A stretch of 64,000 nucleotides of DNA from Gemmatimonadota bacterium (lineage in GTDB: Bacteria > Gemmatimonadota > Gemmatimonadetes > Gemmatimonadales > Gemmatimonadaceae), in contig JAQBPX010000002.1 of the NCBI GenBank assembly GCA_028287305.1, forward strand, positions 310,001-374,000. The letters run 5' to 3'. The stretch's first letter is position 1; each line of letters begins with the position of its first letter. Positions 25,740 through 46,227 of the stretch are shown here, piece by piece. The position numbers and the translations under genes were made by a program. Under the pieces are notes generated by a model, which worked only from the letters and a program-made list of their open reading frames with translations, had not been told where the DNA came from and did no database searches.

Positions 25740-26753
25740 ATGCCCCCACGCAAAGCGAAGCCCGCCGCGAAGAAGCCCGCCGCCAGGAAGCCTGCCGCCA
25801 AAAAAGCCCCCGCGAAGAAGTCCGTCGCCAAGGCGGTCTCCCGCGCCGTGAAGCACGGCAAGACGCCCCGCACCGCCACCGGCAAGAAGTCCCACCCCGC
25901 GCAGATGGCCGAGGCGGCCGAGGCCTCGCGCAAGGGATTCAAGGAGCGCACGGAGGCGGGCCACCGCGCCGCTGGTCGCACGCCTCCTTCGCAGAAGTCC
26001 GGCATCAAGACCAAGGGCGCCGCCCGCGTGATCGACGACGCCATCCGCGACGACTTCATGGCCACGGAGGACAGCAAGCTCCTCCAGACGGAATCGTCGC
26101 ACGCCGACTTCACGCGCTCCGACCCCTGGCGCGTCCTCCGCATCATGGGCGAGTTCATCGAGGGCTTCGACAACCTCGCCACCGTGAAGAAGGGCGTCTC
26201 GATCTTCGGCTCGGCGCGCACCGACCCCGCTGACCCGCAGTATCAGGCTGCCGTCGAGACCGCGAAGCTCCTGGCGGAGGCTGGATTCTCCATCATCACC
26301 GGCGCCGGACCGGGCATCATGGAAGCCGCGAACAAGGGCGCGAAGCTCGGCGGCGGACTCTCGGTGGGCTGCAACATCGAGCTGCCCTTCGAGCAGGGCG
26401 CCAATCCCTACGTCGACCGGCTGGTGAACTTCCGCTACTTCTTCGTGCGGAAGACGATGTTCATCAAGTACTCCAACGCCTTCATTATTTTTCCGGGCGG
26501 CTTCGGCACGCTCGACGAGGCGTTCGAGGCGCTGACGCTCATCCAGACGGGGAAGATCTACCAGTTTCCCGTGATCCTGTTCGGGCGGCATTACTGGGCG
26601 GGACTCATCCGCTGGTTCCAGTCGCGCGTGCTGGTCGAGAAGAAGATCTCCCCGGGGGACATGGACCTCATGTTGCTCACGGACGATCCGGCCGAGGCGG
26701 CCAACGCAGTGATCCAGGCGTGGTCCGCGCAACAGAGTTCGCCCAACATCTGA
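25740..26753 (+). CDS. LOG-family protein with Lys/Ala-rich N-terminal tail
   Basis: A 337-residue protein of the LOG (TIGR00730) group, whose members remove ribose 5-phosphate from nucleotide monophosphates such as cytokinin precursors. The catalytic core (about 140-330) shows [24 protein letters not shown] and the signature PGGFGTLDE (252-260). Before it stands a tail of about 90 residues that looks like histone H1 (repeats such as [10 protein letters not shown] and [11 protein letters not shown]). Such a tail should bind nucleic acid. ATG 25740 is the only plausible start. The gene runs into the next with 8 nt between. Family certain; substrate and tail role unknown. Confidence 0.9.
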
Positions 26754-26761
26754 GAACAGAA

Positions 26762-28045
26762 ATGGCAAGCAAGAAGAAGGTGAAGCCCGACGGGCGCGAG
26801 CGCGGCGGGTTCAAGAGCTCCCGTCACGGCAAGGCCACCGCCTCCGGCAGCAAGTCCGAGCAGAAGAAGGCCGCCGAGGCCCGTGAGAAGTCAGGCAAGC
26901 AGCATACGTCGCACGAGGCGAGTCGCTTCCTCAAGGGCGCGCGCATCGCGCCGAAGCGCATCACCGGCAAGGAGACGGCGGCCGACCTGATCGACGGCAC
27001 CTTCCAGGCGTACAACGCCGCGCGCCTGCGCGAGGCATGCCAGCTGTTCACGAACAAGATGCTGGAAAAGGACGTCACCGTCGGGATGACGCTCACGGGC
27101 GCCCTCACCCCCGCGGGCATCGGCATGTCCACGCTCATCCCGCTCATGGAAGCCGGGTTCGTGGACTGGATCATCTCCACCGGCGCGAACCTCTACCACG
27201 ACGCGCACTTCGGGCTCGGCCTCGCGATGCATCGCGGCAACCCGCAGGAGAGCGACGTGGTGCTCCGTGAGGAGGGCGTCGTCCGCATCTACGACATCTT
27301 CTTCGACTACGACGTGCTGCTCAGCACCGACGCGTTCTTCCGGAAGATCATCACCGGCAAGGAATTCCAGCGCAGCATGTCGAGCGCCGAGTTCCACAAC
27401 CTCTGCGGCAAGTACATCCGCGAGCGCGAGAAGGCGCTCGGCATCGGCAACCAGTCGCTGCTGGGCGTCGCGTACGAGTGCGGCGTGCCCATTTACACGT
27501 CGAGCCCCGGCGATTCATCCATCGGCATGAACATCGCCGCGCTGGCGCTCGAGGGAAACCTGTGCGTGATCGACCCGAACGCCGACGTGAACGAGACGGC
27601 GAGCATCGTGCTCGACGCGAAGCGCAGCGGCGGCAGGAGCGGGATCTTCATCTGCGGCGGCGGCAGCCCCAAGAACTTCGCGCTGCAGACCGAGCCGCAG
27701 ATCCAGGAAGTGCTCGGCATCGACGAGAAGGGGCACGACTACTTCCTCCAGGTCACCGATGCGCGCCCCGACACGGGTGGGCTATCGGGCGCTACTCCGG
27801 CTGAGGCGGTGAGCTGGGGCAAGATCGATCCGGACCGGCTGCCGGATGCCGTGGTGTGCTACCTCGACTCGACCGTCGCGCTGCCGCTGCTCACGAGCTA
27901 CGCCTTCGCGCGCCACAAGCCGCGCAAGCTCAAGCGCCTCTACGCGCGCCGCGAGAAGATGATGGATGCGCTGCGTTCCGAGTTCCGGAAGGCGAACGAC
28001 ATCCCGCACGAGCCGCCAGCGTCGAAGCTGGAGCGGCATCGGTAA
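26762..28045 (+). CDS. Deoxyhypusine-synthase-like protein with Lys-rich N-terminal tail
   Basis: The 427-residue product has the NAD-dependent deoxyhypusine/homospermidine synthase fold: [38 protein letters not shown], and the loop CGGGSPKNF with Lys304, which matches the lysine that forms the enzyme-imine in deoxyhypusine synthase. Bacteria lack eIF5A, so bacterial members are thought to make homospermidine or modify other amines. The first 50-60 residues are a Lys/Ser/Gly tail ([18 protein letters not shown]...) rather like the tail of the LOG protein upstream. ATG 26762 follows that gene by 8 nt: an operon of two. Polyamine or nucleotide metabolism close to DNA is one reading. Confidence 0.88.
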
Positions 28046-28050
28046 CTGCC

Positions 28051-28348
28051 GTCGTCCTGGGCGAAGCGAGGGACCTATCGTTGCAGTTCGGCCCCTCTAT
28101 CGGTGCTGCAGGTCCGTGGTCTGTGGTCTGTGGCATGAGCAGGGAGTCGGTAGCGGCGGCATTTGCCGCCGCCTCGTCATCAGTTCGCAGTGAACATGTT
28201 GAACCACACGCTCATGACAAAGGCGGGCGCCTTCAGGCGCCCGCCTTCCTCATCATGTCGGAGCCACAGACTCACAGACCACAGACCTGCGTACCGGTAG
28301 GGCGGCCGACTGCAACTGCAGATCCTTCGCTGCGCTCTGGATGACGAC
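28051..28348. repeat. Large palindromic element with cloverleaf plan (copy 1)
   Basis: This fills the gap of about 300 nt between two convergent genes. Outside, GTCGTCCTGGGCGAAGC (from 28051) faces a reverse copy ending at 28348. Next come TTGCAGTT and AACTGCA. Stem P1: 28108-28134 (two GGTCTGTG-type units) pairs with 28263-28290, with one bulge and one G-T. Inside are hairpin P2 GCGGCGGC/GCCGCCGC (28153-28172, loop ATTT), stem P3 GTCAT/ATGAC (28176-28180 and 28214-28218) with inner GTTC/GAAC, and hairpin P4, 12 perfect pairs with loop TTCA (28220-28247). The same order is found at 45964-46227. No protein gene is seen here. Confidence 0.85.
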
Positions 28349-28349
28349 C

Positions 28350-29132
28350 CTACAACACCCTCTTCGCCACCGCCAATACCACGCTCCGTCGCGAGTACTC
28401 CCCCAGCGACGCATAGCCCGTGAGCTCCTCGCCCCCCATCACGGTGCGCAATATCGACCGCACCGAGTCCCCCGCCCGCAGCCGCGTCTCGATCGCGCCC
28501 AGCATCTCCTCCCAGAACGCGCGCTTCGCGTCGAGCGCCTTCACGGGATCCTTCACGAGCCCGCGATGCGCGTCGAACATCCGCTCCGGCGCGAGCGCCG
28601 CTGCGCGCTGCAGGCTCGCGACCAGCACATACGGATCCTCGCGCTCGTGCATCATCTTCGCGCGCACGCCGAGCCACAGGTCACCCCCGAACAGCGTGCC
28701 CGTGCTCGCGTCCCACAGCACCTGGTGATCGTGCGAATGACCCGGCGTGTGCACGGGCTCCAGCTCGGGCACGAATCGCTCGCGCGGCGCGATCCACTCC
28801 GCCGGCCTGCCCCAGGTGAGCAACCGGTACGCCCGCAATCCCGGCCGCTTCACGAGCATCTCTTCCGTCGCCGGATCGAGCCACACGGGAATCCCGCGCG
28901 AAACCGCAAGCGCCGCATTGCCGGCATGATCCTCGTGCCAGTGCGTGAGCATCAGCGCACGCGGCTTCAGCCGCTCGAGTAGCGCCCCGACCTCCGCCGA
29001 CGCATTCGGAAAGCCGGCATCTACGAGGATGCCGCGAACCAGGTACACGCTCACGTGCATCCCGACCGCGCGGCTCGGTGCGTTCCAGAGCCGCACCCGC
29101 GTGACGTCGCCGTATGCTTCGACCTCATGCAT
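28350..29132 (-). CDS. Metallo-beta-lactamase-fold hydrolase
   Basis: A 260-residue MBL-fold enzyme. The metal motif is HWHEDH (His64, His66, Asp68, His69), followed by TPGHSHDHQ and FGGDLWLG, which give the other ligands. No signal peptide. Members with this length and a helical C-terminal part hydrolyse thioesters or lactones; nothing in the sequence tells which. ATG 29132 (MHEVEAYG) is the natural start. Its stop directly abuts the palindromic element. Divergent from greA. Confidence 0.9.
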   Translation of the reverse strand: MHEVEAYGDVTRVRLWNAPSRAVGMHVSVYLVRGILVDAGFPNASAEVGALLERLKPRALMLTHWHEDHAGNAALAVSRGIPVWLDPATEEMLVKRPGLRAYRLLTWGRPAEWIAPRERFVPELEPVHTPGHSHDHQVLWDASTGTLFGGDLWLGVRAKMMHEREDPYVLVASLQRAAALAPERMFDAHRGLVKDPVKALDAKRAFWEEMLGAIETRLRAGDSVRSILRTVMGGEELTGYASLGEYSRRSVVLAVAKRVL

Positions 29133-39179: not shown

Positions 39180-39276
39180 TGAACAGGACAACGGCGGACA
39201 GATACTGGACAGGGCGGTAGAACAACAAGGATTGTTTTTGCAGTTGTCCTGCCCGTCTCCGCCGTTGTCCTGTTCA
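39180..39276. repeat. Long inverted repeat of the TGAACAGGACAACGGCGGA family (copy 1), probable terminator
   Basis: TGAACAGGACAACGGCGGA (39180-39198) pairs perfectly over 19 bases with 39258-39276. The inside can fold again: AACAA-GGA-TTGTT followed by TTTG gives a small terminator shape. AACTGC stands before the left arm. The left arm is nearly repeated at 54663-54683. It lies after rsgA and before the DUF2277 gene, so it could end the six-gene run. Confidence 0.8.
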
Positions 39277-44680: not shown

Positions 44681-45973
44681 GTGAACGCCGACGTCATCGT
44701 TCCGCGCCGCATCCTGCTTGCCGACGCCGACGCATTCTTCGTCGCCGTCGCGCGCATGGTGGACCCCGACGGCGCGGGACGCGAGCCACTGCTGATCGTC
44801 GGCGGCACGGCCGAGAGTCGCGGCGTGGTCTGCTCGGCGTCGTACGAGACGCGTCGCTACGGCGTCCGCTCCGGCATGCCGATCTCGCGTGCACTGCGGC
44901 TGTGTCCCGAGGCGGTCTGCGTCCCCGTGCCGCGACGCGCCTGCACCGACATGAGCCACGGCATTCGCGAGACGCTCGGCAAGTTCTCGCCGCTGGTGGA
45001 GGCCGCGAGCATCGATGAGTGGTACATGGACCTCGGCGGCACCGAGGTGTTGTACGACAACGAGACGTTGGCGGAGACGGCGCACCTTATCCGCACGGCC
45101 GTGATTCGCGACACGGGGCTGTCGGTGTCGATCGGCGGCGGCACGTCCAAGCTGGTCGCGAAGCTCGCGGTGGAGCATGCCAAGCCGAAGGCGCACAACT
45201 CGGCGACCGGCGTGTTCGTGGTGCCGCCAGGTAGCGAGGCCGGATTTCTCGCGACGCTCGAGCTGGCGGAGATCCCGATGATCGGCCCGCGTTTCCAGGA
45301 GCGCCTCGCCTCGCTGGGGATGAAGCAGGTGGCGGACGTGCTCCCGCATTCGGCCGCCGAGCTGATGCGCATGCTCGGCGAGCGTGAGGGCGAGTGGCTG
45401 TGGGAGCGCGTGCGCGGCATTCATGACGGGGCGGTGGAGCCCCATGCCGACGCGAAGAGCCTCAGTCGCGACGAGACCTTCGCAGTGGACATTGCGGACG
45501 ATGCGGGACTGGCGCACGAGCTGGCGTCGCTTGCCCAGCGCGTGTCGTCCGACCTGCGTGGCGAGGGACTCGCCGCGCGCACGATCACCGTGCGCATTCG
45601 CGACCATGATTTTCGCACACGGTCAGCGTCGCGAACGCTCGACGCGGCGGTGATGTCGGACCGCGTCATTCACGCGGTGGCGCGCCAGCTCCTCACCAAG
45701 CTGCGCGCGGCGCGGCGCGTGCCGGCGCGGTTGCTGAGCGTGGCGCTCACGTCGCTGTCGTCACATGCCGGCGCCGACCAGCTGGCGCTGTTCGAGGCGC
45801 AGGCGGGAAGGGAAGTGGAGACGGAGAAGGACCGCGCGGTGGCGCGCACGATCGACCGGGTGCGCGAGAAGTTCGGGAGCGAGGGGATCGTGATGGGCGG
45901 GGCGCTGGGCAGGACGGAGGAGAACGGGAAGGGGGCGGACAGTCACCGGCGGCGCGGAACGCAGTCGTCCTGA
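44681..45973 (+). CDS. dinB: DNA polymerase IV (Y family)
   Basis: An error-prone lesion-bypass polymerase of 430 residues. Catalytic acids: the first motif reads LLADADAFF and the second SIDEWYMDL (Asp-Glu). The fingers, the thumb helix-hairpin-helix (LAEIPMIGPRFQERLASLG) and the little-finger domain (RDHDFRTRSASRTL) are in place; a QLALFEAQ segment near the end may be a clamp-binding remnant. The Ala in place of Met/Val in the first motif is slightly unusual. GTG 44681 is the start. The last three residues and the TGA stop lie in a dispersed repeat (from 45964), so the gene end was set by the repeat. Confidence 0.9.
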   Translation: MNADVIVPRRILLADADAFFVAVARMVDPDGAGREPLLIVGGTAESRGVVCSASYETRRYGVRSGMPISRALRLCPEAVCVPVPRRACTDMSHGIRETLGKFSPLVEAASIDEWYMDLGGTEVLYDNETLAETAHLIRTAVIRDTGLSVSIGGGTSKLVAKLAVEHAKPKAHNSATGVFVVPPGSEAGFLATLELAEIPMIGPRFQERLASLGMKQVADVLPHSAAELMRMLGEREGEWLWERVRGIHDGAVEPHADAKSLSRDETFAVDIADDAGLAHELASLAQRVSSDLRGEGLAARTITVRIRDHDFRTRSASRTLDAAVMSDRVIHAVARQLLTKLRAARRVPARLLSVALTSLSSHAGADQLALFEAQAGREVETEKDRAVARTIDRVREKFGSEGIVMGGALGRTEENGKGADSHRRRGTQSS

Positions 45974-46227
45974 GCGAAGCGCCGTCATCCTGAGCGAAGC
46001 GAGGGATCTGGCGTTGTCGTCGGCCGCTCTGTCTTACTGCAGGCCGGTAGGCCCGTGGGCCCGTAGGCTCGAGCACTGACACGGTATGCGGCGGCCCGCG
46101 GCCGCCGCTTCGTCATCCGTTCAAGGTTGACTGCGTTGCCTGCGAACTCATGACGAAGCGCGCAGCGCTTCCTTGTCCCTGCTCGAGCCCACGGGCCTAC
46201 GGGCCTACGGGCCTGTAGTTCGAACTA
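45964..46227. repeat. Large palindromic element with cloverleaf plan (copy 2)
   Basis: Starts with two GTCRTCCTGAGCGAAGC units (45964-45980, 45984-46000), the first giving the dinB stop. Stem P1: 46040-46075 pairs with 46180-46215, 33 of 36 bases, made from GGGCCTAC-type units. Inside: hairpin P2 GCGGCGGC/GCCGCCGC (46088-46108), stem P3 TTCGTCAT/ATGACGAA (46109-46116, 46150-46157) with inner GTTC/GAAC, and hairpin P4 GAAGCGC/GCGCTTC (46155-46171). The right end is the palindrome TAGTTCGAACTA, which holds the M23 stop codon. P2 and P3 match the copy at 28051; P1 and P4 differ in sequence but pair. Confidence 0.85.

Follow-up and report, generated by a model that had tools for sequence, protein, structure and literature searches.

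The 64,000-nt stretch of Gemmatimonadota DNA analyzed here (the window) contains a composite palindrome between two convergent genes, which is probably one copy of a dispersed, non-coding foldback repeat of the REP/MITE type, spread as a non-autonomous DNA element and placed at shared gene 3' ends. The structure is real and well above chance: the minimum free energy (MFE) of the palindrome folded as RNA was −196.2 kcal/mol, against a shuffled mean of −118.6 (z −14.7), and none of 200 shuffled sequences folded as well. One nested structure across the whole gap had been described by a sequence-only reading at 28051-28348; we located it at 28050-28346, 4 and 3 bp from the stop codons, which end at 28045 and 28350. 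Its arms (28050-28134 and 28263-28346) are ~80% complementary. The features of the locus, with that of a second copy in the window, are as follows.

26720-28045, + strand: left neighbor, an ordinary gene, presumably for a deoxyhypusine-synthase-like protein (named by sequence reading)
28050-28346, no strand: whole composite palindrome, from inverted arms and fold
28051-28076, + strand: left REP-like unit GTCGTCCTGGGCGAAGCGAGGGACCT, by comparison with other copies of the unit
28077-28107, + strand: left middle arm, from REP unit to heptamer stem
about 28108-28134, + strand: left heptamer-repeat arm, (GGTCTGT)n
28134-28263, no strand: cloverleaf core, with 14 genomic copies aligned
28153-28172, no strand: core hairpin A, GCGGCGGC/GCCGCCGC
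28176-28218, no strand: core central stem-loop, GTCAT...ATGAC, by comparison of copies
28220-28247, no strand: core hairpin B, 12 pairs with a TTCA loop; other copies have different perfect hairpins instead
about 28263-28290, − strand: right heptamer-repeat arm
28291-28319, − strand: right middle arm
28320-28345, − strand: right REP-like unit GTCATCCAGAGCGCAGCGAAGGATCT, head-to-head with the left unit
28350-29132, − strand: right neighbor, an ordinary gene, which we take to encode a metallo-beta-lactamase-fold-like protein (named by sequence reading)
45984-46219, no strand: second copy, with the left REP unit only, an octamer stem (GGCCCGTR)n and the same core

Several parts named from the letters alone were found again, namely hairpin A (GCGGCGGC-ATTT-GCCGCCGC), the inner pair GTTC (28183-28186)/GAAC (28192-28195) and the 12-pair hairpin with the TTCA loop. 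The proposed stem of 27 pairs exists as the heptamer-repeat stem (28108-28134/28263-28290), but has one mismatch and one bulge. As for GTCAT (28176-28180)/ATGAC (28214-28218), the letters are present and the comparison of 14 copies backs the stem, but it is absent from the MFE fold of the single window copy, which pairs CATGAG with CTCATG in its place.

The outermost layer consists of two REP-like units of 26 nt, each with a GTC tag and a hairpin closed by a GNA loop, standing head-to-head at the ends of the palindrome. The unit GTCATCCTGAGCGAAGCGAAGGATCT has 100 copies in the host genome (at most 3 mismatches), whereas its reversed control has 0. A degenerate form was found in 32 of 249 Gemmatimonadota genomes, often as inverted pairs, with controls at 0 throughout; in some relatives the inverted units lie ~57 bp apart, resembling CGTC-type REP dimers. 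The hairpin comprises five pairs beginning with A-T and T-A, the mismatches G-A/A-G, two further pairs and a 3-nt loop; in the left window unit GTCGTCCTGGGCGAAGCGAGGGACCT, the first pair is G-C instead of A-T, a compensated change. Across 83 contexts the unit is nearly invariant; the exceptions are the central GNA-loop nucleotide (A 48, C 30, T 3, G 2) and stem positions that covary. The GTC tag is fixed in at least 81 of these contexts and is preceded by C in 19. Among 40 distinct hairpin variants, a set restricted to those close to the consensus, 94.6% of the cells pair, with 14 double changes versus 3.9 in shuffles and 0-2 when the alignment was slid. The tip, GCGAAGC, forms an exceptionally stable DNA mini-hairpin. 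Mini-hairpins of this type have been put to use (PMC4686876). As the loop base is the only free position, we infer that the pattern fits selection on a single-stranded hairpin. In addition, REP-like units in direct tandem, spaced by 36-39 bp, were observed in the host at C4:332561-332664, C1:310-407 and C32:148867-148928, indicating that the units amplify locally too.

The second layer is the stem, which in the window element is built of (GGTCTGT)n. The heptamer GGTCTGTGGTCTGTGG has 50 matches in the host genome versus 1 in 58 relatives (at most 1 mismatch). The second copy, which had been placed near 45964, was confirmed, although of the two REP units it retains just the left one, and its stem is built of the octamer GGCCCGTR, with 25 host matches versus 1 in the 58 relatives. 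The stem repeats are genome-specific; other genomes use other repeats. When the arms of 16 copies were paired with their own partners and with those of other copies, the difference was of only modest significance (p 0.006), because stems are common within the family, and our reading gives it no weight.

The third layer, the cloverleaf core, aligns over 115-136 nt in 14 host-genome copies, some of them free-standing and some inner levels. In 12-14 of the 14 cores, nearly every pair of GTCAT/ATGAC and hairpin A is conserved, while hairpin B is swapped among unrelated perfect hairpins of the GGCGGGCGCC, CGCGCAGCGC and CGGGGCCGCG types. RNAalifold detected few double changes in these cores, because the hairpins are exchanged as whole units. 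Such whole-hairpin exchange is stronger support for the cloverleaf than individual double changes are.

The structure is not confined to this gap. In the host genome (4.37 Mb in 39 contigs, the sole member of its genus in the genome collection compared), the window element gave 97 BLAST matches, distributed over about 40 places, which disposes of a lack of further copies, the outcome that the sequence-only reading had named as fatal to its claim. The copies fall into size classes of about 120, 200-300 and 540 bp, plus gene-enclosing forms. The ~120-nt copies are single hairpins (C8:37333-37456, C12:218495-218605); those of 200-300 nt include the window copy, C24:224226, C24:280600, C12:214839, C10:97007 and C4:18225; and the ~540-nt copies (C4:595828-596365, C4:100057-100595, C29:9885-10426, C12:82571-83110) have two levels, in which another stem, bearing two hairpins of its own, is nested in the center of the first. 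At C4:219430-220897, two arms of 216 nt, 83% complementary and of the same type as those of the window element, surround a gene that we assume from its sequence to be rhodanese-like, possibly through gene capture or because a gene inserted into the central loop. With a similarity of 70-88% among the copies, no recent jump is apparent, which counts against spread by insertion.

Other foldbacks were also observed. A second family of palindromes in the host combines REP-like ends with a GAGCCACGGGTTTCACTG-containing core (C10:87004-87188, 91275-91462 and 93594-93789; C16:37375-37606), and the host also has a longer palindrome with TGAACAGGACAA (C16:246779-246899); the window itself has a perfect 19-nt inverted repeat, TGAACAGGACAACGGCGGA, at 39180-39276.

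In an 800-kb sample of the host genome, we found 21 long inverted pairs versus 1 in the mirror control. Nine of 18 sampled palindromes lie between convergent genes, compared with 20% of gene pairs as called by a simple gene caller, and the only "divergent" palindrome among the 18 overlaps a doubtful ORF. This 3'-end bias, the convergent site with its stop codons 4 and 3 bp away, and the strong GC hairpins would all suit a palindrome that serves mainly as a two-way terminator or mRNA 3'-end stabilizer, selected at its site. We consider this unlikely, since ten relatives, none of the host's genus, do with only about 14-70 bp in the gap, as delimited by tblastn match ends. In addition, T-runs are missing, so that the window element has no site with a GC hairpin followed by a T-run and an intrinsic terminator is rejected; the sequence-only remark that such nested order is more than a terminator needs was apt, as the structure far exceeds that requirement.

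For the left-neighbor protein (441 aa), the nearest relatives come from assemblies of Gemmatimonadaceae and other Gemmatimonadota, mostly 73-86% identical, and both neighbors share one locus in 34 relatives. Apart from the ten with the short gap, other relatives hold different foldbacks there, with GAACCGT arms (L070), 9-mer arms (L107), CGTGGAT-like arms (L090) or GATTAGG arms around a REP-like pair (L077), which suggests that the gap was filled more than once. The convergent gap thus seems, from these comparisons, to be a repeatedly filled landing site. Unrelated foldbacks with short tandem-repeat arms were observed in the orthologous gap of L070, L077, L084, L090, L107 and L124. Separately, a partial second deoxyhypusine-synthase-like gene, 81% identical, lies near a contig end of the host (C24:366317-366979, L187), just downstream of a REP unit; it is either a paralog or a contaminant.

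The sequence-only reading had also offered a structured RNA, and a non-coding RNA of defined structure, conserved for a function of its own, would account for the very stable fold, the compensatory changes and the core hairpins conserved in 14 copies. Nevertheless, no Rfam 15 family matched at the gathering score, so an Rfam RNA family is rejected; the sub-threshold matches resemble generic long hairpins. A promoter-like site was not found, and matches in the relatives are confined to short pieces, chiefly the terminal REP unit, with no long match to the interior. Moreover, template switching can keep palindromes paired at the DNA level (PMC8794818). We regard this explanation as highly improbable, and the window feature is best classed among REP/MITE-type repeats, not as a previously unknown RNA family.

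The dispersed copies, head-to-head REP-like ends, compensatory changes and position at gene 3' ends agree with the other possibility raised from the letters, a mobile non-coding element of the REP/BIME type. The accompanying proposal of a RAYT substrate found no support: Y1_Tnp (PF01797) had no match in the host genome, although five control genomes did match, and the tag is GTC, not GTAG. We therefore rejected a RAYT-driven REP or REPIN. The earlier statement that no named family has this plan holds for the whole as far as we found, although at its outer ends the element is similar to REPs of the CGTC-type superfamily (Di Nocera et al. 2013, PMC3733652). Those CGTC-tagged REPs are short hairpins with a terminal GTC tag and a stem starting with A-T pairs, mostly arranged as intergenic head-to-head dimers without a dedicated transposase, and they adjoin the 3' ends of convergent or same-direction genes, in convergent gaps at most 20 bp from both 3' ends (PMC3733652). 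The window units are likewise head-to-head, intergenic and near gene 3' ends, their distances of 4 and 3 bp falling within those 20 bp. They differ in that the position preceding GTC is not restricted to C, in having an internal G-A/A-G mismatch and a 3-nt GNA loop where CGTC-type REPs have an 8-9 bp stem and a 4-5 nt loop, and in a dimer spacer of ~240-480 nt of nested palindrome.

Like MITEs and BIMEs (ERIC, NEMIS, RUP, E. coli BIME; PMC3733652), the element is non-coding, dispersed, strongly folding and intergenic, with terminal inverted repeats and no coding capacity. Unlike them, it showed no target-site duplication at six full copies and no parent transposase in the Y1_Tnp search, its modules are exchanged and nested, and its stem repeats are genome-specific. 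The lack of a target-site duplication and of a linked transposase in these searches also counts against spread by insertion. In the open-licence literature, we found no paper on the element, and its whole plan, including the two-level nested form, is undescribed in the papers we found.

The L090 gap apparently holds a small gene inside heptamer-type arms, which prompted a test of S23p/23S_rRNA_IVP (PF05635). This family was found in 26 of 31 genomes, with 8 matches in the host, none of which lies inside the window element. Complementary arms (score at least 32) flank 64 of 69 Gemmatimonadota IVP genes, with a best arm period of 7 in 24 and 8 in 6, and these arms are somewhat more alike within than between genomes (permutation p 0.001). 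In a first set, 27 of 33 exceeded the 99th percentile of 347 ordinary genes, all taken from the host genome alone (p 5e-13). In Acidobacteriota, 12 of 18 IVP genes lie in complementary arms, most with period 7, and the pattern may be far more widespread; among the arm repeats observed there (L317-L333) are GGTAGAC, AAGGATG and CAAAAGG. The arms locate the IVP genes but say nothing about the function of the protein.

Two host IVP genes have stems in common with the window palindromes: one is perfectly flanked by the GGTCTGT stem found in the window element (C10:89604-89630/90085-90111), and the other is bordered by the GGCCCGTR stem of the second copy (C27:166352-166926). Genus g25 (G024, G039) shows the same sharing, with GGTGTCT-type repeats around IVP genes as well as in small hairpins that enclose no gene. 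Both host stems are nearly absent from the 58 relatives, and their presence around IVP genes makes the IVP elements plausible coding relatives of the window element. A tentative alternative, which we do not favor, is that the window element is a gene-less, non-autonomous relative of S23p/IVP elements, a foldback with heptamer arms in whose loop an S23p gene may lie; the S23p four-helix-bundle protein would aid spread or RNA excision in trans, with the REP units as an added outer layer. In addition to the arms around IVP genes in both phyla and the shared stems, this draws on the Coxiella intervening sequence, in which a terminal stem, heptamer repeats and an S23p gene likewise occur together, although its protein was argued to be probably not made (PMC4990558). 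Against it, only the heptamer stem is common to both, the IVP loci having neither REP ends nor cloverleaf core, and S23p has no known biochemical activity. Tandem-repeat stems may also be mere insertion hot spots, and one palindrome holds the presumed rhodanese-like gene.

The window element does resemble the 23S rRNA intervening sequences of Coxiella and Leptospira (PMC4990558) in its long terminal inverted-repeat stem and heptamer tandem repeats, but it has no S23p gene, lies outside an rRNA gene and carries REP units and a cloverleaf core. A broader proposal, which we consider rather doubtful, is that heptamer-arm palindromes form one foldback mobile class in at least Gemmatimonadota and Acidobacteriota, with S23p/IVP as its trans-acting protein, gene-less copies as non-autonomous members and the 23S rRNA intervening sequences as a subgroup that landed in rRNA genes.

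The composite REP/MITE-type repeat, with two head-to-head REP-like units enclosing heptamer-repeat arms and a cloverleaf core, most likely spread as a non-autonomous DNA element, presumably by transposition. Here it would have landed where two convergent genes meet at their 3' ends, a position in which it would do little harm; its effect at the site is probably mild. Arm complementarity may be upheld by template switching between the arms at replication, together with selection. Such switching can rewrite palindrome arms to match (PMC8794818, PMC7202029), and would explain why stems are unlike between loci yet matched within a locus. If transcribed, the element could act as a two-way 3'-end structure, through mRNA protection, RNase III processing or pausing, and a role in 3'-end processing is possible.

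Stems that differ wholly between loci yet match within each offer a natural test of arm-to-arm template switching. The stem vocabulary in common with S23p/IVP genes, which is suggestive, lifts the element above an ordinary REP or MITE and hints at a common, previously undescribed way of spreading. The shared stems provide a concrete, testable lead on the role of S23p, a puzzle since its discovery in 23S rRNA intervening sequences.
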